Positions 3,758 through 18,439 of a DNA stretch of 32,267 bases are shown here, in pieces. Position numbers and translations under genes: made by a program. The stretch comes from Gemmatimonadota bacterium (GTDB lineage Bacteria > Gemmatimonadota > Gemmatimonadetes > Palauibacterales > KS3-K002), in the NCBI GenBank assembly GCA_020350785.1, contig CP070722.1, positions 3,121,504 through 3,153,770 of the forward strand, read 5' to 3'. The first letter of the stretch is position 1; every line of letters begins with the position of its first letter. The notes beneath the pieces are model-generated. The model ran no database searches. It worked only from the letters and a program-made list of their open reading frames with translations, and was not told where the DNA came from.

Positions 3758-4168
3758 CTACTCGCGGCTTACCGAAAGACTGTAACCGGCGAGCGAAGTT
3801 CTCAGCGCGTTATTTCTGTCGGCTACCTCGGTTATAGTTGCGCTGTAGGAGGGCGCCGCGCCGACATCGGGCACCTCGAAGCTCACGAGCGCACCAGCTG
3901 CGATATCGCCCACCACAACCGCATTCATTGACGCAGTGCCTGTCAAACGGTGAAAGAGAAGGTTCGAGGCAACGACAGAAGTTGGGATATCGATGCCTCC
4001 GCCGCTGATCGAGAACAAGATCGCGCCGTCGTCGGCGTTGGGAGTCGTTAGCGTCAGCACCAGCGTGCCGGGCACGGCTGCTGTGGGCCCATCTTCGTCC
4101 CCGCAGGCGAGCGTGATGGCCAGGGCCATCACGGCCGCCGCCACTAACTGCCAGTGTCGCCGTTTCAT
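3758..4168 (-). CDS. Small secreted lipoprotein of unknown function
   Basis: 136-residue protein beginning MKRRHWQLVAAAVMALAITLAC. This is a textbook lipoprotein signal; the lipobox TLAC is followed by GDEDG, and Asp at +3 and later acidic residues favour outer-membrane sorting. The mature part is small and beta-rich (GTLVLTLTTPNADDGAILF, GGGIDIPTSV, ATITEVADRN). Its ATG overlaps the stop of the large PPC/NHL protein upstream in an ATGA junction, so the two are translationally coupled and probably work together at the cell surface. I do not recognise a catalytic motif. Small TPN-ADDGA lipoproteins of this kind seem common beside secreted dockerin-like proteins in Gemmatimonadota-type genomes; that is recollection, not a search result. 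Confidence 0.8.
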   Translation of the reverse strand: MKRRHWQLVAAAVMALAITLACGDEDGPTAAVPGTLVLTLTTPNADDGAILFSISGGGIDIPTSVVASNLLFHRLTGTASMNAVVVGDIAAGALVSFEVPDVGAAPSYSATITEVADRNNALRTSLAGYSLSVSRE

Positions 4169-6369
4169 TGTGCCCCCTTTCCGGAGTTCAGGCCGTGGTC
4201 GACCTTCCAGCTCTCCATCAGGGCGTGATCCGTCAACCTCGCGGCCGATCCGAGACCGCCCGTCGCTTCGAGGAAGGCACGAAAGTCACCTACGTCGAAC
4301 ACGCCATTGGAGTTACCGAGCAGGTCAAGATACCGCTCTTCATCCGGAGAGAGCACGCCATCGACTCCTAGGATCGCATTCACGACATCGGTCACCGCCA
4401 GCGTGGCTTCGGTCACCGTGATCGAGTAATCCTTCTCTCCAAAGCGGGCGCCGCTCTCAGCTCGAACCCTGAAGGCAAACGTCCCGGCCTCTGTCGGATA
4501 ATCCCCGAGGACACCCGTCCCCGAATCGAGACTGATCCCGGGCGGCAGTGCGCCTTCAATGACACTCCAAGTCGGCGTGACGCCTTGGTCCGTGACGGTG
4601 AGCAACGCTGTGTAGTCCGCGCCTACCACGCCGTCGGGAAGGGCATCTGGACTGACGACCAGGAGCTCGACGCCCACAGGCCATCCTGGAGCGCTAATCC
4701 CAGCCGGATTCATCTCGACTATTGCGCCAGCCCCAAAATCGGTCGCGAAGAGTCGTGCGTTGGTCGTACCATCGGCGTCCCGCCCAAACGCCAGCGCGAC
4801 CGGGCTCTGCACGGTCAAGGCGAACGGATCCTCGAGCACGGTTCCGTCGGCACCGTACAGAATGACCCGGCCTCTAATCTCGTTCGGTACATACAGGTTG
4901 CCGTTAACGTCGAAGGCAAAGCCTTCCAAGAACTGGTCACCCGTAAAGACGAGCTGGGGCTGCCCGGCGACGAGCTTGAAGACCGCGTTGGCGAAAGAAT
5001 TAGAGAAGTGCAATTCGCCCGCCGGTGAGAAGGCCAGGAAGCTGACCCCTCCGACACTGGACACGTCAAAACCTTCCTGCAAAGCGCCGAAGGCGTCGAA
5101 GCGGAAGATTCTGTCAGCGCAAATGTCAGATACCCAGATACTGCCATCGGGACCTGTCGCGATCCAAAACGGGCAGTCGACCTGCGTGAGAAACGCAGTC
5201 GAGACTCCTGTGTCCGATACCTTGTAGACAATCCCGTCGTTGCCAGCGACGAGCAGGTCACCAAATCCATCGAACGCTATACCGAGCGGCCCGGGAATGC
5301 CTGTCGCGAAGACCGATGCGCTTCCATCGGGAGTCACACGCCACAGCTGCTCTAAGAACAGGTCGGCAACGAACAGATTGCCGGCGCGGTCAAAGGCTAG
5401 GCCCGCCGGCGCATCGAAGCCCGAGGCGAAGACCGTCGTTGGGTCGCCGGGGCCCGGTACGAGAGTGCGGAAGTTGATGGCATAGAAGAAGTCCGGGCCG
5501 CCCCTGCCTCCTAGGTCGCTGATGGCAATGAAGTAGGTACCAGTGGCTTGCACCGTGTACTGTATGCGGCTATCAAGCCCATCGAAGTCATCGTTGGAGG
5601 CCAGGCTGGTTACGCCATCGGAGTCAAACAGTTCGAGAAACGAGTCAAGGGATGAGCCCACCGCCCACGCATCGACATCGATGTCGAGAGTCGTTCCCGC
5701 CGGAGCGGAGAACGACCAGTAGTCCACGTCTCCAGTGGCACACATCACTCCGGTGGCAACGTCACCCAGATTGACCGCGTCCGCTGAACCTGCTTCGTTG
5801 TTCGGTTCGGTCTCCAGGTATCCACTGTCATCGCAGACCAGCAGGTTGAAATTGATGGAATAGAAGTAGCCCGGGCCGCCCATGTCCGAAAAACCGCTGA
5901 TAGCCATGTAATAGTTGCCCGCGGCTTGCACCGTGTACTGTATCCGGCTGTCCAGGTCATCGTAGTCGTCGTTGAAGGCGAGGCTTGTCACGCCATCCGA
6001 AGCGAAGAGTTCGAGCATCGGGTCGAGGGGTGAGCCCACCTGACTTGCATCGACATCGATGTCGAGAATGTCCCCGGCTGCAGCAGAGAAGATCCAGTAG
6101 TCGATATCGCCACTGGGATCTACATCGCCCGTTCCCTGATCGCCCAGGCTCACGGCATCTGCACTCGCTGGACCGTCATTGGGCTCGCTCTCGTTCACTA
6201 CCGCAGCCGACAGCACGGGGCTGTGTTTCAACGTATGAGAGGGAGACCACTTATAGAACAGGCGGGCTCGTTCCTGGTTGGGGTCCTTTGTCGTTGGTTT
6301 CTGCGCCAGCGCCTCTCCCGCGTCTGCCATTCCGACAATCGCGGCGAGGCACAATAACCGTCTGAACAT
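4165..6369 (-). CDS. Large secreted PPC/NHL/Ig-like/dockerin-like multidomain protein
   Basis: 734-residue secreted protein. I chose ATG 6369 over 6396 because GGGAGG lies 7 nt before it and the signal peptide (MFRRLLCLAAIVGMADAGEALAQ) then starts immediately. Domains in order: two PPC (bacterial pre-peptidase C-terminal) beta-sandwiches at about 60-165 and 177-285, each with ESEPND or ETEPNN, GDIDYW or GDVDYW, and LDSRIQYTVQA. An NHL/SMP-30-like beta-propeller follows (about 295-560; repeated GLAFDRAGNLFVAD and GIAFDGFGDLLVA units). Then comes a putative Ig fold of He_PIG type (about 570-650; ALPPGISLDSGTG). Last is a dockerin/EF-hand-like segment (about 655-700) with LGNSNGVFDVGDFRAFL. No protease domain is visible, so this looks like a binding or scaffold protein. 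It is coupled by ATGA overlap to the lipoprotein at 3758-4168, a plausible anchor. The domain calls are firmer than the role. Confidence 0.85.
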   Translation of the reverse strand: MFRRLLCLAAIVGMADAGEALAQKPTTKDPNQERARLFYKWSPSHTLKHSPVLSAAVVNESEPNDGPASADAVSLGDQGTGDVDPSGDIDYWIFSAAAGDILDIDVDASQVGSPLDPMLELFASDGVTSLAFNDDYDDLDSRIQYTVQAAGNYYMAISGFSDMGGPGYFYSINFNLLVCDDSGYLETEPNNEAGSADAVNLGDVATGVMCATGDVDYWSFSAPAGTTLDIDVDAWAVGSSLDSFLELFDSDGVTSLASNDDFDGLDSRIQYTVQATGTYFIAISDLGGRGGPDFFYAINFRTLVPGPGDPTTVFASGFDAPAGLAFDRAGNLFVADLFLEQLWRVTPDGSASVFATGIPGPLGIAFDGFGDLLVAGNDGIVYKVSDTGVSTAFLTQVDCPFWIATGPDGSIWVSDICADRIFRFDAFGALQEGFDVSSVGGVSFLAFSPAGELHFSNSFANAVFKLVAGQPQLVFTGDQFLEGFAFDVNGNLYVPNEIRGRVILYGADGTVLEDPFALTVQSPVALAFGRDADGTTNARLFATDFGAGAIVEMNPAGISAPGWPVGVELLVVSPDALPDGVVGADYTALLTVTDQGVTPTWSVIEGALPPGISLDSGTGVLGDYPTEAGTFAFRVRAESGARFGEKDYSITVTEATLAVTDVVNAILGVDGVLSPDEERYLDLLGNSNGVFDVGDFRAFLEATGGLGSAARLTDHALMESWKVDHGLNSGKGAQ

Positions 6370-6857
6370 GGCACGCCTCCCTTGTTGAATGGGCACTTGG
6401 AGCTCAACCGACCTGTCGCAGCGAGCTGCCAGGACTATCGAATCTCAAATGCCACGGACGACTTTGTATGTAATCACCAGCGTCCCACGGTAGAACCAAC
6501 AATTGATGAACTACCAAGGTAGCGTGACCCAAGCGTGACCCCAGCGTGATCCCAGCGTGAGCCCGGCCCTCGTCTTGCACTTCTTGCTCCCGCGATTAGA
6601 GCGCACTCGGCCAACCGGCCATCGACTTGGGAAAAGCAAACCGTGCAGCAGAAATCGAGAACTACTATTGGAAGCTACTTCTGGATACGACGGGAACGAA
6701 CGAGAACCGCCGCAAGGCGAGCAGCCGCGATTCTCATGGAGGGGAAATGCGATTGGAACTGACAGTGGCCGACGCGGTGCGACTCCTTCGGTTCAGGTCT
6801 CAATTGTCAAAGGCGGGTCAGCTTCCTTGGAACCCATTCCGCACAGTCAGGGGCCTC
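6370..6857. other. 488-bp intergenic region between secreted-protein gene and S9 peptidase gene
   Basis: Both flanking genes are on the minus strand, so this holds the promoter and leader of the PPC/NHL gene and the 3' region of the S9 gene. The one clear structure is the 11-bp tandem repeat at 6521-6564. A plus-strand reading frame beginning near 6750 after GGAGGGG extends antisense into the S9 gene and lacks a recognisable family; I do not call it. No RNA gene was seen. Confidence 0.6.
6521..6564. repeat. Four tandem 11-bp repeats (AGCGTGAnCCN)
   Basis: Units start at 6521, 6532, 6543 and 6554: AGCGTGACCCA, AGCGTGACCCC, AGCGTGATCCC and AGCGTGAGCCC. The period is exactly 11 bp with AGCGTGA invariant. 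They lie about 150 bp upstream of the PPC/NHL gene start on the minus strand (read there as TCACGCT repeats). The helical-turn spacing would suit cooperative protein binding on one face of DNA. Simple slippage expansion is the alternative. Confidence 0.75.
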
Positions 6858-11054: not shown

Positions 11055-11097
11055 CTCACCGCCGATGAAGGCTATCCCCGGGATCGAGAGGGGGCTT

Positions 11098-12075
11098 ATG
11101 CAGGCACGATTTCACAAGTTCGTTCGCTTCCTTCCCGCCGCGATCGTATTTGTCGTGCTCGCCTCTTGCGAGGAACTTCCTGACGCCGCCTCCACTCACG
11201 AGCCTCGAGGCCTAACAGGCCTGCGGCCCGACCTGGTTTCGGTGGCGCCCGGCGAGATGCAGTCGCCCGTGCGGATCGCGCAAGACAAGCAAGGCCGCCT
11301 CTACGTCAGCGACTACCAGTCGCAGTCCGTGGTGATGCTGGATGCCGGAGGGGGCGGCGTCTTCGTAGCTGCCGCATTCACGGTGCCGGGTAATCCATTG
11401 GGGATCGAATGGGCGAAGGGGAACTTGCTTCTCGTAGGCAACGCCACGACCCGGACGGTGGACGTATACAGGACGACCAACGGGAAGTGGTTCTACTCGC
11501 TGGGCGGTGTGGGGGCGATCGGCGACCCCAGCGACATCGCTGCGGATTCCGACCGTGACCTGGCCTTTGTGGTCGACGGCGAGGCATTCGCGGTCAAAGT
11601 GTTCGACCTCAGGAACGGCGCCCTGCTGTACACGATCTCGGGTCCCGGGCCCGGCAGTTACTATCTGCAGAATCCGACCGCGATCGCCCTGGATCCGTCG
11701 CGCGGCGAAGTTCTGGTCAGCGACTTCGGCGATCCCGCTGTCTCCGGCTCTCCCCCCAGCGTCAAGATCTACACCTACGAGGGCGACCATGTGAAGACGC
11801 TCTCGGGGAAATCGGGGATGCTCGGCCAGAAGTTCTCACGGCCCCAGGGGCTGGCGGTCGACGCTCTCGGCCGAATCCTGCTGGTCGATGCCGTGGCCGG
11901 GGAGGTGCTCGTTCTCGACCGCCAGACCGGCAACGTGCTGGAAACGTACGGAACGCTCGGATCCGGACCCGGCGAGCTCTGGCTCCCCCTCGATCTGGTA
12001 GTCGACGACAACCAGATGCTCTACGTGACGAACAATCGGCCTCGCCGCGTCGAGGTCTTCAGCCTGGGAGGCTAG
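11098..12075 (+). CDS. Six-bladed NHL beta-propeller lipoprotein (first of two in the cytochrome locus)
   Basis: 325-residue envelope lipoprotein. ATG 11098 was preferred over 11065 because GAGAGGGGG lies just upstream and the signal peptide then starts at once. The lipobox is VLASC (Cys24) followed by EELPD. The mature protein is made of about six NHL-type blades (VRIAQDKQGRLYVSDY, LGIEWAKGNLLLVGN, SDIAADSDRDLAFVVD, AIALDPSRGEVLVSDFG, GLAVDALGRILLVDA, LVVDDNQMLYVTNN). This is consistent with a closed six-bladed propeller. Propellers of this type accompany multiheme cytochromes in Geobacter OmcS-type clusters, where their role is not settled; secretion, assembly or anchoring are proposals. 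The pentaheme cytochrome begins 4 nt after its stop, so the genes are cotranscribed. No catalytic residues are recognised. Confidence 0.87.
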   Translation: MQARFHKFVRFLPAAIVFVVLASCEELPDAASTHEPRGLTGLRPDLVSVAPGEMQSPVRIAQDKQGRLYVSDYQSQSVVMLDAGGGGVFVAAAFTVPGNPLGIEWAKGNLLLVGNATTRTVDVYRTTNGKWFYSLGGVGAIGDPSDIAADSDRDLAFVVDGEAFAVKVFDLRNGALLYTISGPGPGSYYLQNPTAIALDPSRGEVLVSDFGDPAVSGSPPSVKIYTYEGDHVKTLSGKSGMLGQKFSRPQGLAVDALGRILLVDAVAGEVLVLDRQTGNVLETYGTLGSGPGELWLPLDLVVDDNQMLYVTNNRPRRVEVFSLGG

Positions 12076-12079
12076 GTCG

Positions 12080-12694
12080 ATGAGGTGGCTACTCCTGATT
12101 CCGCCCCTGGCAGCGGCCGTGACGCTGGCCCTGCTCTTCGGATTGGAGAGCGGCGACGCCGCCTCGGCGGTCGCGCTCAACCCGAACCACGAGTGCAGTT
12201 TCTGTCACGGACTCCACGGTGGCAATACCAATCCTTTGCTCAGAGGGGCCAGCATCGAGGCGACGTGTCTGAGCTGCCACGGCCCGGCGGGCACGGCGAT
12301 TCTCGCGGATGTCCACAAGAACGACCCGACGGGCAACAGCTGCTGCGCCCCTTTCCGGGTCACTTGCATGGAGTGTCACGACCCCCACAGCAACCAGACC
12401 AACTGGCGTGGGAACGAGAACCTGAAGCTGGTCCGGGCTAACATCACCGGCGCGAACGGAACTCGCCCTGTCGTATTAGAGACCCGGAGCGGCGACTTCT
12501 CTTTTTGCGATCTCGAGGGACCGACCGGAGAAACCGGCTATCCCCAGGCGGTCGGCGAGTACGACAACGTCTGCGACGTTTGCCATGCCAACCCGGATCT
12601 CGCCAGACATCACCTGAACAGCGACAAGCAGCACCACCAAAGCCCAAATACATGCCCGAGCTGCCACACTCACGATAACGCTTTCAGTCCGTGA
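12080..12694 (+). CDS. Pentaheme c-type cytochrome (doubled-CXXCH type)
   Basis: 204-residue exported cytochrome starting 4 nt after the NHL gene. The N-terminus (MRWLLLIPPLAAAVTLALLFGLESGDAAS) is a signal peptide, possibly uncleaved. Heme-binding CXXCH sites are at 39-43 (CSFCH), 63-67 (CLSCH), 96-100 (CMECH), 165-169 (CDVCH) and 192-196 (CPSCH). Additional histidines that could be distal ligands include His46, His79, His103, His177-178 and His185-186, so bis-His ligation is possible. The DPHSNQTNWRGNENLKLVR-like stretch after heme 3 resembles other doubled-CXXCH cytochromes. An extra Cys pair (88-89) just before heme 3 is unusual and could form a disulfide. It probably acts in the periplasm or at the surface as an electron carrier for the locus. 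Confidence 0.9.
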   Translation: MRWLLLIPPLAAAVTLALLFGLESGDAASAVALNPNHECSFCHGLHGGNTNPLLRGASIEATCLSCHGPAGTAILADVHKNDPTGNSCCAPFRVTCMECHDPHSNQTNWRGNENLKLVRANITGANGTRPVVLETRSGDFSFCDLEGPTGETGYPQAVGEYDNVCDVCHANPDLARHHLNSDKQHHQSPNTCPSCHTHDNAFSP

Positions 12695-12843
12695 GCCTCG
12701 ACTCCGTGAACCGAGCTGAAACGATGCTGCAAGCCACGATAACGAATCCTTGCCTCCGCAGTTCGGGGCAGGCTGGCCCGCGAGTCGGTGGGACGCTATC
12801 GCGCGCGGGTCTTTCCACACAATCAACTTTAGGAGGGTACCCC

Positions 12844-13494
12844 ATGAAACGCTGTACTGGTATGCTGCTCGCCATGGTCTTCATGGCGACGACAGCAGCC
12901 CTGGCCCAGGGGCCGCAAGAAATCGCGGGCAGCGCCCACGACTTCCGGACCGAGGCTTGGGCAGGAAACACCGGCACGACGGCCACCGCCAACGGTGACC
13001 TGTGTGTGGTTTGCCACACGCCGCACAACGGAAATACCAGCGTTCTCAACGCTCCCCTTTGGAACCACGCAGTTTCGTCTGGGCCATGGGACCCCTACGT
13101 CGGCACCGACTTGCAGGCCACCGTTGGGGACCCCGACGGGAGCTCGGTCCTGTGCCTGAGCTGTCATGACGGCTCGGTCGCCCTGGATTCTTACGGCGGC
13201 CAGACGGGAAGCACGACCATGACCGGAGCTGCGTTTGTCGATACGGACCTGACCAACGACCACCCGGTATCGTTCGTCTTCAATGCCGCGCTTGCGGTTT
13301 CGGATGGTACCCTCTGGGATCCGGAGGTCACGAATAGCGGTCTCGGAGGCACCATCCAGGACGACATGCTCGACTCGGCCGACAAGGTGCAGTGCGCATC
13401 GTGCCACACCGTGCACAATGAGTCGACGCTTGACAAACTCCTGAAGAAGTCCAACGACGGAAGCGCTCTGTGCACCACTTGCCACGCGAAGTAA
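12844..13494 (+). CDS. Tetraheme c-type cytochrome, candidate OmcE-like extracellular filament subunit
   Basis: 216-residue exported cytochrome. ATG 12844 is chosen because AGGAGGG lies 7 nt upstream and a clean signal peptide (MKRCTGMLLAMVFMATTAALA, cleavage before QGPQ) starts there; this is the strongest ribosome-binding site in the locus. CXXCH sites are at 54-58 (CVVCH), 104-108 (CLSCH), 184-188 (CASCH) and 210-214 (CTTCH). Five other histidines (32 in SAHDF, 61 in CHTPH, 75 in PLWNH, 140 in NDHPVSF, 191 in CHTVH) are enough for bis-His ligation of all four hemes. The order S-HD, CHTPHNG, PLWNH, CLSCHDGS-A, D-HP, SCH-VH, LC-TCH near the end matches, from memory, the tetraheme family that includes OmcE-type filament cytochromes. 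A large hairpin follows the gene (13546-13580). Filament formation is inferred; the cytochrome identity is certain. Confidence 0.93.
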   Translation: MKRCTGMLLAMVFMATTAALAQGPQEIAGSAHDFRTEAWAGNTGTTATANGDLCVVCHTPHNGNTSVLNAPLWNHAVSSGPWDPYVGTDLQATVGDPDGSSVLCLSCHDGSVALDSYGGQTGSTTMTGAAFVDTDLTNDHPVSFVFNAALAVSDGTLWDPEVTNSGLGGTIQDDMLDSADKVQCASCHTVHNESTLDKLLKKSNDGSALCTTCHAK

Positions 13495-13545
13495 TTTGAT
13501 GAACTTAAGCGGCGTCCGACCGTTGGATCGAGGCGGCCGCCAGAC

Positions 13546-13580
13546 GTCAGGGGGCGCCGGGAGACGGCGCCCCCTCTGAC
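13546..13580 (+). terminator. Strong GC hairpin after the tetraheme gene (partial terminator or mRNA 3' stabiliser)
   Basis: The left arm GTCAGGGGGCGCCG (13546-13559) pairs with the right arm CGGCGCCCCCTCTGAC (13565-13580). This gives 10 bp plus 4 bp of stem around a 2-nt bulge, with a 5-nt loop. No U-tract follows (ATAGAGAGAG). It lies 52 nt after the tetraheme stop and about 40 nt before the next gene. It may cap a highly expressed upstream transcript while allowing some read-through. Confidence 0.65.
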
Positions 13581-13622
13581 ATAGAGAGAGGACGCTGCTA
13601 TCCATAAACGAAGGAGATGGTG

Positions 13623-14750
13623 ATGTTTAACCCGGTTGCTTCGCGAATCGCGGGCGCAGGTGTCGCGCTGGCGATCCCACTTCTGATCGCGGCCCTGACC
13701 GGCTGCGCTTCGAAGGCGGCAGTTGGCCCCGCGGAGCGACCGCTCGTAGTCTTCCCCCTACCACCCGACACACCTCGTGTACAGTTCCTCACCGCGTTCG
13801 GCACTTCCGAAGACGTCGAGGCGCCGAGGTCCCCTTCCTTCTGGGAACGGCTGTTGGGCGAGAAGGAAGAAAAGAAGCCCGTCGCAGCCATCATCAAGCC
13901 TTACGGCGTGACGATCCTCAACGGACGAATCTACGTCTGTGATACCGTCCTGGGCGGGATCAACGTGTTGGACGTCCGGTTGGGCCGCTTCGAGCAGTGG
14001 AAACCTACCGGGTTGGGGAAATTGGTGACGCCCGTGAACTGCCACGGTGATCCGCTGAGCGGAAAGTTGTACGTGGCCGACACCGGACGGGAGCAGGTGA
14101 TCGTATTCGACACCACTGGCGCCTACGTTACGTCGCTGGGCGAGCGAAAGGGGTCGCGGCCTGTCGACGTTTTCGTGCACGAGGATAGGATATGGGTAGC
14201 ATATTTCGGATTGCGAGAAGTCCGCAGTTACGCCATCGAGGATCATCGACTTCTCTCTACGCTTCCGAACCGGGATGCCCCGGTCGAGGAGCAGATCCGC
14301 GGCCCCACCAACATCTGGGTAGCAGACGACCAGGTATACGTGAGTGACTTCGGCGCGTCACAGGTGAAGATCTACACGACTGCTGGAGAGTTCGTGCGCG
14401 CCGTCGGTAGCTACGGGGATGCGCTCGGCCAGTTCGCACGGCCGAAGGGGATCGCGGTGGACCGCGACGCGAACCTTTTCGTCGTAGACGCGGCCTTTCA
14501 GAACGTGCAGATTTTCAACAATGAGGGGGCCTTGCTGATGTTCTTCGGCGGCCCTTACGAGGGACCCGGCACGATGTGGCTGCCCGCCAAGATCACCGTG
14601 GACTACGACAATCTCGATCTGTTCCAGAGTTACGTGGACAGGAATTTCGAGCTGCAGTTCCTGATCCTCGTGACGAATCAGTACGGGCCCGACAAGGTGT
14701 CGGTCTATGGTTTCGTCAAGGCGCGGCAGAGCGACGATGTACCGGGCTAG
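13623..14750 (+). CDS. Six-bladed NHL beta-propeller lipoprotein (second in the cytochrome locus)
   Basis: 375-residue envelope lipoprotein. ATG 13623 is preferred over ATG 13617 because the AAGGAG at 13611-13616 abuts the earlier ATG but is 6 nt from the later one. Signal and lipobox: PLLIAALTGC (Cys28). After a Pro-rich linker and a charged stretch (FWERLLGEKEEKKP), NHL-like blades follow: YGVTILNGRIYVCDTV, GDPLSGKLYVADTG, VDVFVHEDRIWVAYF, TNIWVADDQVYVSDFG, GIAVDRDANLFVVDA and a diverged last blade (KITVDYDN). It is longer than the first NHL protein and only generally similar, so the pair is not a recent duplication. Its 3' end overlaps the hexaheme gene by 14 nt, implying coupled translation. 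Likely role: structural or assembly partner for the cytochromes at the outer membrane; inferred from position. Confidence 0.86.
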   Translation: MFNPVASRIAGAGVALAIPLLIAALTGCASKAAVGPAERPLVVFPLPPDTPRVQFLTAFGTSEDVEAPRSPSFWERLLGEKEEKKPVAAIIKPYGVTILNGRIYVCDTVLGGINVLDVRLGRFEQWKPTGLGKLVTPVNCHGDPLSGKLYVADTGREQVIVFDTTGAYVTSLGERKGSRPVDVFVHEDRIWVAYFGLREVRSYAIEDHRLLSTLPNRDAPVEEQIRGPTNIWVADDQVYVSDFGASQVKIYTTAGEFVRAVGSYGDALGQFARPKGIAVDRDANLFVVDAAFQNVQIFNNEGALLMFFGGPYEGPGTMWLPAKITVDYDNLDLFQSYVDRNFELQFLILVTNQYGPDKVSVYGFVKARQSDDVPG

Positions 14751-15597
14751 GCTTCTCCTCTCGGCCGCCGCTGCCACGGCGATCTTCGCGGGCGCCAACT
14801 GCCGGAGTGCGGCGCAGGTCATTCTCGATCTGCCCGAACCGGAGCCACAAACCCAAATCGCCGCCCAGCCAGCCGCGGGCCCAGCGGCTGTACCCATCGA
14901 TACAGTACGTGCTCCTTCGCCCGCCGAGGCCGCTCAAACGCCGGACAGCGTGCTGGCGTTGCTTCCGCGGCACGCCTCCGGCGGCATCGACTGGGTTGCC
15001 GCGCTACGCCGCGGAGTCATCGGCGGCCGGCCTGCGGGTCCGAGATTCGGCTTCGACTTCTACTTCGGCGAGATGGAGGCCTACTTCCCGCACTCCTCAC
15101 ACACGGAGTGGCTTGGTTGCGAGAGCTGTCATCCTGCGATCTACCGGACACGCGGCTCATCCAAGACCAGCATGGCCGAGATCCAGGCCGGCGAATCGTG
15201 CGGCGTCTGTCACGGCAAAGTGTCCTTCGGGACCGAAGTCTGCGAGCGCTGCCACGAAGCCTTCCAGATGCCGGCGGACCGTATCGTCCCGCGCCTGGAA
15301 ACCGACCTGCTGCTGCCACGTGACAGCGCCGCCGGGTCGGAAGAGGATTTCCCGCCCTCGATCTTCGCGCATTGGCAGCATCGCATCCGCTATCTGTGTT
15401 CAGATTGCCACCCGTCTCTTTTCACGATGAAGAGGGGGGCGAACAAGATCACCATGCGCGCGATCCAGCAGGGCGAGTTCTGCGGCGATTGCCACAACGG
15501 CCGTCAGGCCTTCGGCGTTATCCAGTGCCTGCGTTGTCACCGCAGCCCACCGGACCCCGTCGAGCCGCCGAAGCCCGAGCCGAACGAGCCCGGGTAG
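14737..15597 (+). CDS. Hexaheme cytochrome with two c7-type triheme domains
   Basis: 286-residue exported cytochrome. ATG 14737 (MYRARLLLSAAAATAIFAG) is preferred over 14707 because the signal peptide then has a short n-region; it overlaps the NHL gene by 14 nt. After the signal comes a Pro/Ala-rich linker (about 30-75). Two copies of a class III (c7/c3-like) triheme domain follow. Domain 1 (about 117-173) has CESCH 128-132, CGVCH 155-159 and CERCH 169-173. Domain 2 (about 209-268) has CSDCH 221-225, CGDCH 249-253 and CLRCH 264-268. Each has the pattern F-H-H, C-CHP, K-M--I--GE-CG-CH, C-RCH typical of periplasmic triheme cytochromes. I recall a TIGRFAM model (nanowire_3heme) for this triheme type, not checked. 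It sits right before the barrel gene, so it could be the periplasmic or barrel-plug electron donor. The C-terminus is Pro-rich. Confidence 0.92.
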   Translation: MYRARLLLSAAAATAIFAGANCRSAAQVILDLPEPEPQTQIAAQPAAGPAAVPIDTVRAPSPAEAAQTPDSVLALLPRHASGGIDWVAALRRGVIGGRPAGPRFGFDFYFGEMEAYFPHSSHTEWLGCESCHPAIYRTRGSSKTSMAEIQAGESCGVCHGKVSFGTEVCERCHEAFQMPADRIVPRLETDLLLPRDSAAGSEEDFPPSIFAHWQHRIRYLCSDCHPSLFTMKRGANKITMRAIQQGEFCGDCHNGRQAFGVIQCLRCHRSPPDPVEPPKPEPNEPG

Positions 15598-15605
15598 ACC
15601 GACCG

Positions 15606-17531
15606 ATGTGGCTCAGGACCGTCCCCGCTCTTCTTGCCGTGCTGATCGCGCTTGGACCTCTTGCGCCCCAGACCTTGGCGCAGGGCTTCCAGATCAGGGA
15701 GGTGGACGGAGAGGTCGCGGTCACCCTCGACGGCTTCTGGGCCCAGTATCCGGTCAGGCCCGGTACCTCGGTGATTACCTGGCGGGAATGGCTGCTGCTG
15801 AAGCTGAACGGATTCGTGTCCGACCCCAGGCTTGTGAGTTTCAATCTTGCGGCCAGGCCGGTGCTGGGCCAACGCTCTTGGAGTGGGATAGGCGACACAC
15901 CGAACGGCGGAGACCAGATGCTGAACGGACTGGGGCGGATCGTCCTGCTGGGCGGCGCACCCCTGTCTTTCTCCGCCTGGTGGAGCCGAATCTCCGCTGA
16001 CCAGGACCTCCAGTTCGGAGCTCGCCAAGAGACGGATGGAACGGACTGGGAGCTGGAGGCGCGTTCCAGCTGGAGACCATTGCCGGCCCGTCTGTCCTAC
16101 TCGGGCCGTTCGCTGCAACAACTCTTCCGCCCAAACCCGGGTGTCATCAGCGCTCTGGATGAAGATCGCCAAACGCTCAGACTGTCAGCCAGCAACAGCA
16201 AGCTCCGAGTCGACGTCGAACGCCTCGACTACGAGAGTCGAACCAGCGACCTCGCTTTCGTTCGCACTCTCGTCGACACGGACCACACGCTCCGTTGGGG
16301 TAGGGGAAGCCGACTCACGTCGGGCTTTCTATATCTCAACACCTCGGGGAGAGGCGCGGTAGAACGGCTAAGCTGGAGACAATCGGCTCGGATCCGGCAT
16401 GTCCAATCGTTCTCTTCCAGTCTGGGCTATCAGCTGTTCGACGCAACCACGGCGTCCGATTTCAACCGAGGCTGGTCTGCGAGCTACTTGGGTAACTGGA
16501 ACCGTCGCCGCCACTTTACGATTGCCGTGGGAGGGGATGTCCGCTCGCGGTCGTTCCGTCTTGGGGCGCAGCGGTTCGCACGTGGACGCTCACGTGTCGC
16601 GTCCTCCGCCCGATTGCCTCTCGGTTTCGCCCTCGGTATCGACGGCGGGCTCGGATACGAGTTCTACAGGCAGTCACTCTCGGCGGACGACGGTTTCGGT
16701 ACGGTCGTCGACGAAAGGCAGGTGATCGACGCAAGCGGCACCTTCGTGCTCAACGAACCTCTGGCAGAACCGGCATCGGTGGTCATCACGAGCGAGGACG
16801 GCACGATCGTATTCACAGAGGGACTCGACTATCGCCTCGTGGAGTCAGCGGGACGCCTCGAAGTGTTCGCGCTTCCCGGGGGGCGCATGACAGAGGGCAC
16901 GGTAGTCCTAGTGGACTACCAGGTCCGACTTCTCGCGGAGGCCGAAGAAACAAGCTGGACCTACAGCTACGAGCTCAGACTAAGGAAGGGGCCTTTCACC
17001 GCCTACCACAGTCGCGCCGCGCGCAACTTGATCGAAAACGGCTCCCCGATCCCCAGCCCGACGTTCCGGGAATACGACGAAATCGCTGCGGGGATACGGC
17101 TAGCCGGAGTGGGTTCGATCGGATACCTGTCTCTAGCGGCGGACTATACTCGGCGCACACAGAACCCCGGCCGCCTCTCGAACCAGATGCAGGTGAAGGG
17201 CAGTTGGCGCTACGCTTTCGGCCCCGGACTCATGGCCAACTTGACAACGCGCTATACTTCTCGAACGAACGGGCGCAGGTTCCAGATCTTCGAGGGTACC
17301 GGAGGCGGCGAGTGGCGGGCTACCTCCAGACTGAAATTGTATTTGCGGCTTTCAGCGTATGATTGGCACGAGCGGGCCTTCCGGTCGGAGCGCTTCTTCG
17401 GTGCCGGCGTAGGAGGCGAATGGCTGGTGCGGCAGTTGTCTATGCGGTTGTCTTACGACAGGAACGCCTGGACCGAAGGTTTCGAGCGAACGGAGGACCG
17501 TCTCATCGCGCAAGTGACTCGGAGCTTCTGA
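15606..17531 (+). CDS. Cys-free outer-membrane beta-barrel protein of the cytochrome locus (porin-like)
   Basis: 641-residue outer-membrane protein. ATG 15606 starts a signal peptide (MWLRTVPALLAVLIALGPLAPQTLAQ) 8 nt after the hexaheme stop; the frame upstream of it lies inside that gene and is ignored. The body alternates hydrophobic and polar residues with many Arg and aromatic residues, in about 20 or more amphipathic strands (RLSYSGRSLQ, TLRWGRGSRLTSGFLYL, SLGYQLFDATTAS, LKLYLRLSAYDWHE). It ends in a terminal Phe (LIAQVTRSF), the BAM-recognised end of barrels. Residues about 375-443 look like an inserted small beta-sandwich (GTIVFTEGLDYRLVE, EGTVVLVDYQV). No cysteine occurs in the whole protein. 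MtrB-type conduit barrels are of similar length; here a hexaheme and a heptaheme gene flank it instead of a decaheme MtrA. I do not recognise the family by sequence; the conduit role is inferred. Confidence 0.8.
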   Translation: MWLRTVPALLAVLIALGPLAPQTLAQGFQIREVDGEVAVTLDGFWAQYPVRPGTSVITWREWLLLKLNGFVSDPRLVSFNLAARPVLGQRSWSGIGDTPNGGDQMLNGLGRIVLLGGAPLSFSAWWSRISADQDLQFGARQETDGTDWELEARSSWRPLPARLSYSGRSLQQLFRPNPGVISALDEDRQTLRLSASNSKLRVDVERLDYESRTSDLAFVRTLVDTDHTLRWGRGSRLTSGFLYLNTSGRGAVERLSWRQSARIRHVQSFSSSLGYQLFDATTASDFNRGWSASYLGNWNRRRHFTIAVGGDVRSRSFRLGAQRFARGRSRVASSARLPLGFALGIDGGLGYEFYRQSLSADDGFGTVVDERQVIDASGTFVLNEPLAEPASVVITSEDGTIVFTEGLDYRLVESAGRLEVFALPGGRMTEGTVVLVDYQVRLLAEAEETSWTYSYELRLRKGPFTAYHSRAARNLIENGSPIPSPTFREYDEIAAGIRLAGVGSIGYLSLAADYTRRTQNPGRLSNQMQVKGSWRYAFGPGLMANLTTRYTSRTNGRRFQIFEGTGGGEWRATSRLKLYLRLSAYDWHERAFRSERFFGAGVGGEWLVRQLSMRLSYDRNAWTEGFERTEDRLIAQVTRSF

Positions 17532-17533
17532 GC

Positions 17534-18439
17534 ATGGTTCGATCGATGCGGCACCCAACGGGTCGAGCGAAAGGACAGATCCGCCGTCGCCGGAGGGCCT
17601 GTTTGGCCGCCGCGCTGACAGCGCTTGCTCTACTGGCCGGTCCCGCACCGAGAAGGTTGCATGCCCAGCACGGCAGTGTCACAACCGGCGACCCAGCGGT
17701 GGGCGACTGCGCGCTCTGCCATACCTCGCACGATACCGGCTTCAATCAGGCAACGCTTAAGTTGGGCAACGTTGCGGGAATCGTGGTGGACGCGCCCGGG
17801 ATCGGACCGCTGTCACAGAGCTGCCTGCGATGTCACTTCACCGAGTCGCTCCGCGCGCAGCAGTCCGAGCTGCAAAAAGCCGAGCTCGCCGGCCAGACCG
17901 GTTTGTACATCGAGCGCGACCTGACGGACGACCACCCGCTCGGCAGATTCGATACCGGCAGGCTGCAGGCAACCAATCGCATCTCAGGCGCAAAATCAGC
18001 CGACCTCGGCCGCATGAGATCCAAAGTATTCGCACTCGATCAAGAGTCGGTTATCGAATGCACGACGTGCCACGACCCACATGATCAGCGCGGAGCAACT
18101 CCAGCGGTCGAGGAGGAGCGAGCGCTGTGCACAAACTGTCACGAGACCGGTCGCTACGCGTTCGTGGGCGGTCACGCGGATATCCCCTGCTCCGGGTGCC
18201 ACGTCATGCATGGTGGCTACGAATCGGAGCTGCTGGCGGAACGAAGCTCCAATCAGGTTTGTGCTGGCTGTCACGAGGGTAGCTGGGCCTCTGCCACGAC
18301 TGACCCGACATCCGCGGTGGCGCTACGGCGAGCCCTGATCCTCGCCACGATCGCGCCGCCTTCAGCGCAAGCGCATCTGGATCCGCCCCAAGGCGAGTGC
18401 GTGCAATGTCACGCGCCGCACACCGCGAGCAAGCACTAG
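17534..18439 (+). CDS. Heptaheme c-type cytochrome (doubled-CXXCH type)
   Basis: 301-residue exported cytochrome starting 2 nt after the barrel stop at ATG 17534. The start is Arg-rich (RAKGQIRRRRRAC), followed by the hydrophobic core LAAALTALALLAG and cleavage near LHAQ; a long but plausible signal peptide. CXXCH sites: 59-63 CALCH, 97-101 CLRCH, 176-180 CTTCH, 199-203 CTNCH, 219-223 CSGCH, 243-247 CAGCH and 289-293 CVQCH. Distal His candidates follow in pairs (CHTSH, CHDPH, CHVMH, CHAPH), the doubled-CXXCH pattern. DLTDDHPLGRFD after heme 2 echoes the D-HP element of the tetraheme protein. It is the last gene of the operon and ends 26 nt from the convergent GT4. It may be the surface or periplasmic partner of the barrel. 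Confidence 0.92.
   Translation: MVRSMRHPTGRAKGQIRRRRRACLAAALTALALLAGPAPRRLHAQHGSVTTGDPAVGDCALCHTSHDTGFNQATLKLGNVAGIVVDAPGIGPLSQSCLRCHFTESLRAQQSELQKAELAGQTGLYIERDLTDDHPLGRFDTGRLQATNRISGAKSADLGRMRSKVFALDQESVIECTTCHDPHDQRGATPAVEEERALCTNCHETGRYAFVGGHADIPCSGCHVMHGGYESELLAERSSNQVCAGCHEGSWASATTDPTSAVALRRALILATIAPPSAQAHLDPPQGECVQCHAPHTASKH

Follow-up and report, generated by a model that had tools for sequence, protein, structure and literature searches.

How cytochrome nanowires leave the cell, how they are anchored and how they are loaded with electrons were called unresolved in a recent review (PMC12307469). A cluster of seven genes in a Gemmatimonadota bacterium raises the question of whether a predicted nanowire subunit, an outer-membrane barrel and several multiheme cytochromes are encoded there as one extracellular electron-transfer system. 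The genes, here named A to G, lie on the + strand at positions 11098-18439 of the window, i.e., the whole stretch of 32,267 nucleotides that was analyzed (Table 1). A preliminary description of this DNA had proposed an extracellular electron-transfer or cytochrome-nanowire locus in Gemmatimonadota, and the proposal is supported by gene C, which resembles OmcE in sequence and fold, by the model of F and by the nanowire_3heme match of E. We give a rough probability of 0.6 to the reading that the seven genes specify a system for electron transfer at the outer membrane in which an OmcE-type cytochrome forms a filament. The presence in Gemmatimonadota of an extracellular electron-transfer locus of the OmcE/Uet type is well supported, and no earlier report of this phylum as electroactive was met in the literature searched.

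Table 1. Features of the seven-gene locus, with positions in the window and the evidence for each assignment.
Feature	Position	Strand	Evidence
Gene A: NHL β-propeller lipoprotein, lipobox VLASC	11098..12075 (ATG at 11065 possible)	+	Pfam NHL 1.4e-17
Gene B: 5-heme cytochrome	12080..12694	+	5 CXXCH; Paired_CXXCH_1 1.5e-7
Shine-Dalgarno region of gene C, containing TAGGAGG	12829..12840	+	Direct sequence reading
Gene C: tetraheme OmcE-family cytochrome, predicted nanowire subunit	12844..13494	+	OmcE 7tfs 3.9e-18, 9yuq 4e-20
GC-rich hairpin 3' of gene C, no T-run	13545..13586	+	Fold of 13495-13616: -54.1 kcal/mol, z -3.73
Gene D: NHL β-propeller lipoprotein, LTGC lipobox	13617..14750	+	Pfam NHL 1.3e-9, DUF5128 2.3e-12
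Gene E: six-heme lipoprotein-like cytochrome, two c7-type triheme domains	14737..15597 (ORF from 14707)	+	TIGR04257 3.2e-36, two stretches
Gene F: predicted outer-membrane β-barrel, ~28 strands	15606..17531	+	AlphaFold2 pLDDT 77; Foldseek
Gene G: seven-heme cytochrome, DmsE/MtrA-like, below cut-off	17534..18439	+	TIGR03508 1e-11

The locus is flanked on the left by an SSF symporter gene and on the right by a glycosyltransferase gene and polysaccharide genes, and its base composition is about that of the remainder of the window. All seven co-directional genes of the preliminary description are present, and the domains of its two NHL lipoproteins and four multiheme cytochromes were found again with Pfam and NCBIfam; the lipoboxes and signal peptides were assigned by eye, without a predictor. 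A recount of the heme motifs returned the same number, 22 CXXCH sites, distributed as 5, 4, 6 and 7 among B, C, E and G. The forward codon pattern for CXXCH occurs 22 times in the locus versus twice in the remainder of the window, and only 0.34 occurrences would be expected in the locus from the genome rate of 187 forward occurrences in 4.09 Mb (Poisson p ~1e-32). The genes had also been described as overlapping or a few bases apart, which holds for most of them (spacing of 2-8 bp or a 14-bp overlap) but not around gene C, which is set apart by gaps of 149 bp upstream and 122 bp downstream. Gene C is preceded by a strong Shine-Dalgarno sequence of its own, and the hairpin on its 3' side is possibly an mRNA stabilizer or attenuator. 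This separate ribosome site and the 3' hairpin are consistent with a filament subunit made in excess of the platform; the hairpin may set the level of the subunit.

The relationship of gene C to OmcE was examined in sequence and in predicted structure. In phmmer searches of the PDB, gene C aligned over its full length, with the four CXXCH motifs in register, to 9yuq, an entry of 16 chains named 'putative multiheme cytochrome c', and to 7tfs, titled 'Cryo-EM of the OmcE nanowires from Geobacter sulfurreducens'; a profile built from 66 gene C homologues matched 7tfs with an E-value of 5.4e-43. The AlphaFold2 model of C, built without heme, is of moderate confidence (pLDDT 72, poor over residues 41-73), and its sole PDB fold match in Foldseek was 7tfs (E 5.4e-8, TM 0.53-0.57). 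All 66 homologues contain four CXXCH motifs. Outside these motifs, every one of the 66 sequences has H32, H140 and H191, and 64 of them have H61; all four residues are matched in 7tfs and 9yuq in the PDB alignments. The pairing of four hemes with four additional conserved histidines is compatible with bis-histidine ligation, and from their number and conservation H32, H61, H140 and H191 are the likely axial heme ligands. It was reported that one heme per OmcE subunit is closed by a histidine from the neighboring subunit (PMC12954529). Gene C keeps the N-terminal histidine of OmcE and its CHxK end at the C-terminus. C resembles the OmcE nanowire of Geobacter sulfurreducens (GSU0618, 7tfs) in full length, in its four hemes, in the distal histidines and in the end after the last heme, and on its sequence it is a homolog of OmcE in which the heme-binding plan is kept. 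OmcE is a solved filament; for C, filament formation is a prediction. Homology to OmcE is not proof of polymerization, since relatives carry several OmcE-like copies and UetJ, discussed below, has an OmcE-like domain. In one related genome (G015), a second OmcE-like gene, without H61, is located near a second pair of NHL and multiheme genes (L010:3171-6985).

The remaining products of the locus are a predicted barrel and its putative partners. F has no Pfam match, yet its predicted model is a large β-barrel, in agreement with the outer-membrane β-barrel of the preliminary description. The fold matches of this model are outer-membrane barrels, among them MtrB (6r2q_B, 4.4e-6), which is one of many barrels so matched, and residues 378-442 form a small, conserved inserted domain. 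From the model we predict that F is a large barrel of the outer membrane. It is encoded beside multiheme cytochromes, as in the porin-cytochrome conduits (MtrAB, OmbB, Ext), from which the locus differs in that F has no sequence match in Pfam or the PDB, porins included, and in that G has 7 hemes, not 10. E scored 123 bits against the nanowire_3heme family TIGR04257 (cut-off 40) and is related to the solved structure 3ov0 (3.9e-40), and its lipobox-like cysteine is kept in relatives. The likeness of G and B to conduit cytochromes is weak, including that of G to DmsE/MtrA. In relatives, G homologs adjoin F and A homologs are paired with a multiheme cytochrome; B aligns to the N-terminal 180 residues of 14-15-heme proteins (blastp 1e-18 to 1e-24), and these also pair with an A homolog.

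In the proposed mechanism, the six-heme lipoprotein E and the seven-heme G, positioned at barrel F or inside it, would pass electrons over the outer membrane and would link periplasmic carriers with the outside in either direction. The tetraheme C would be exported and stacked end to end as a filament, one heme of each subunit being closed by a histidine of the next, and the propeller lipoproteins A and D together with the pentaheme B may assist the export, anchoring or shaping of the filament at the cell surface. The genome encodes a NapC/NrfH-type multiheme protein, which could connect the system to the quinone pool, as well as genes for cytochrome c assembly. Electron uptake was linked to Uet (PMC12575090) and the reduction of insoluble acceptors to OmcE (PMC12307469), so that flow in either direction is conceivable. 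The probable function of the gene set is electron transfer across the outer membrane, either to the cell exterior or from it.

The closest known arrangement is the Uet (undecaheme electron transfer) cluster known from Ca. Tenderia and Gallionella, which includes the tetraheme UetA, the barrel UetC, the triheme c7 proteins UetDEG and the NHL proteins UetHI (PMC10734462), together with the prolyl isomerase UetB and the undecaheme UetJ (PMC10734462; PMC12575090). The comparison rests on gene content and on other loci arranged in this way; on these grounds, the two share a tetraheme cytochrome, a barrel and NHL proteins in one cluster. They differ in that two triheme c7 domains are here fused in one lipoprotein (E) adjoining the barrel, and in the extra 7-heme G and 5-heme B. 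A search of the same genome with a UetJ-like profile (A6) returned genes C and G only, and no UetB-like prolyl isomerase was found among the window genes scanned. Because the c7 part differs and UetJ and the prolyl isomerase are missing from the genome and the window, respectively, the locus is Uet-like but not a complete member of the Uet type. The preliminary description held that a filament gene and a barrel are combined in one locus; the combination is present in C, F and E, but it is not unique, as Uet already pairs a tetraheme cytochrome with NHL proteins and a barrel. We call the locus a Gemmatimonadota variant of the OmcE/Uet-type conduit, with a layout that is not new in kind.

The Uet system itself is tied to OmcE by the UetJ-like proteins, the first ~210-213 residues of which are an OmcE-like domain (profile E 1e-60); no statement of this link was met in the literature searched, the search being not exhaustive. 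In UetJ-like 11-heme proteins at L051:14906-16591, L072:8365-10062 and elsewhere, the OmcE-like domain is fused to a 7-heme part, and such a fusion, going by its sequence, is a possible filament base adaptor.

The distribution of the locus was surveyed within the class and beyond. Among the 394 class genomes surveyed, C was found in 13, E in the identical 13, and F in those 13 plus 3 others (16), a co-occurrence with a chance probability of ~1e-24 when kinship is ignored; the three F-only genomes have F at the edge of a contig, on a small contig or as a partial match. The locus is thus rare and patchy (~3-4% of class genomes) and was absent from the 7 other family members sampled. The comparison of synteny suggested in the preliminary description showed that the genes are kept together in relatives: all seven are clustered in G015, in the same order, and in G044, which belongs to another family, with two orientations, and clustering was seen in further families of the class too. 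Two layouts occur in the class, C-D-E-F followed either by G-A-B or by NHL and an 11-heme UetJ-like protein. The barrels of the 13 Gemmatimonadota-type loci form one clade (support 100), and their C genes do not in the best tree (5 changes; AU test p 0.17). A swap of the filament gene by transfer is not claimed, because the C tree is discordant with that of F but the AU test leaves room for a single C clade.

Beyond the class, named genomes were scanned, and of the OmcE-like loci found, at least 556 in number, the best 80 were retained; the phyla represented are Calditrichota, Bacteroidota, Ignavibacteriota, Chlorobiota, Pseudomonadota, Thermodesulfobacteriota, Verrucomicrobiota, Sumerlaeota and others. 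Fifty-five of the best 80 had at least 6 kb of readable downstream sequence, and within 6 kb downstream of the OmcE-like gene a D-like NHL gene was present in 51/55 and an F-like barrel in 46/55; since the best 80 are the closest matches, these fractions may be lower among distant OmcE relatives. A strong match to E was found only in the Gemmatimonadota locus among the best 80. In named gammaproteobacterial and betaproteobacterial loci the order is C-D-F-NHL-11-heme. The core of C, D and F with cytochromes is, by these sequence comparisons, recurrent in many phyla.

Barrel and propeller genes beside the OmcE-type gene at most of the named loci, together with the genome-level co-occurrence in the class, provide a concrete candidate platform, and the question of nanowire export and anchoring becomes directly testable in cultured carriers, which include Aestuariivivens marinum (L074) and Carboxylicivirga marina (L091). 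Gemmatimonadota also joins the likely electroactive phyla. A broader proposal, which we put forward tentatively and regard as doubtful in this full form, is that an OmcE-type subunit, an NHL lipoprotein, a barrel of ~640 residues and barrel-side cytochromes constitute a dedicated platform in the outer membrane, present in about ten or more phyla, that exports or anchors OmcE-type nanowires and also charges them. The base adaptor of the filament would be the undecaheme protein in the Uet form, and in the Gemmatimonadota form E and G would take its place.

Instead of a conducting system, the barrel, the propellers and the small cytochromes may chiefly be an export and assembly machine for the C filament, with conduction by other proteins. 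Such a machine would be similar to the osc operon of Geobacter, for which it was proposed that OscH folds, OscE/OscF/OscG secrete and OscD shapes OmcS nanowires (Shen et al., 2025, as summarized in PMC13194489). The two would then share, going by that summary, a nanowire cytochrome whose neighboring genes are proposed to act in its secretion and morphology; OmcS, unlike OmcE, is a hexaheme protein with a different fold. In the abstract of the osc study, OscD is reportedly β-propeller-like and OscEFG channel-like. The NHL gene and the barrel are indeed the most constant neighbors of C, and the flanking cytochromes vary from 5 to 25 hemes. However, where the flanks of F could be read, one or more multiheme cytochromes other than C adjoin F at most loci, which would be needless for a pure export pore, and the window shows no counterpart of a prolyl isomerase, so this explanation is considered unlikely.

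Somewhat less likely still is a porin-cytochrome conduit without a filament, in which C would be a surface or periplasmic carrier capping the barrel and electrons would travel via E, F, G and C. It agrees with the description of UetA as an extracellular tetraheme cytochrome only, not as a filament (PMC10734462), and with the almost constant company of a barrel and cytochromes around C, but it leaves aside that the match of C is specifically to OmcE, both in fold and in sequence, down to the N-terminal histidine and the CHxK end, and that the best PDB match, 9yuq, for which no paper was found, has a chain number compatible with a filament. A periplasmic respiratory complex of the nitrite, sulfur or DMSO type without any function outside the cell was rejected as highly improbable, because the NrfH, NrfB and DmsE profile matches that hint at it are weak and all far under cut-off, no catalytic subunit is encoded nearby, and a predicted barrel and an OmcE homolog are present. 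The family searches suggested in the preliminary description led to extracellular and conduit families, and neither of the two refuting outcomes named there was observed. The reading with an OmcE-type filament is preferred.

A partial inventory of further cytochromes in the genome includes a 19-heme protein whose membrane start is NapC/NrfH-like and which adjoins a 9-heme cytochrome (L109:6585-10179; G000:C1 ~2872584-2876178), possibly a quinol-linked entry to periplasmic cytochromes. A 19-heme DmsE-like protein of 963 residues has a heavy-metal P-type ATPase and an M28 peptidase as neighbors (L013:6769-9660; G000:C1 ~486768-489659), and adjoining 17-heme and 16-heme cytochromes are a second large multiheme pair in the genome (L110:8771-11649; G000:C1 ~3676770-3679648). 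A UPF0182 domain and a DNA polymerase III alpha subunit share a single open frame of 1835 residues, either as a real fusion or through a sequencing error (L015:3009-8516; G000:C1 ~2041008-2046515). In a membrane protein of 767 residues, seven CXXCH motifs are fused to TPR repeats (L111:7356-9659). In the window itself, the - strand at 4165-6396 encodes a protein with a PPC domain, a virginiamycin-B-lyase-like propeller and a putative Ig domain.
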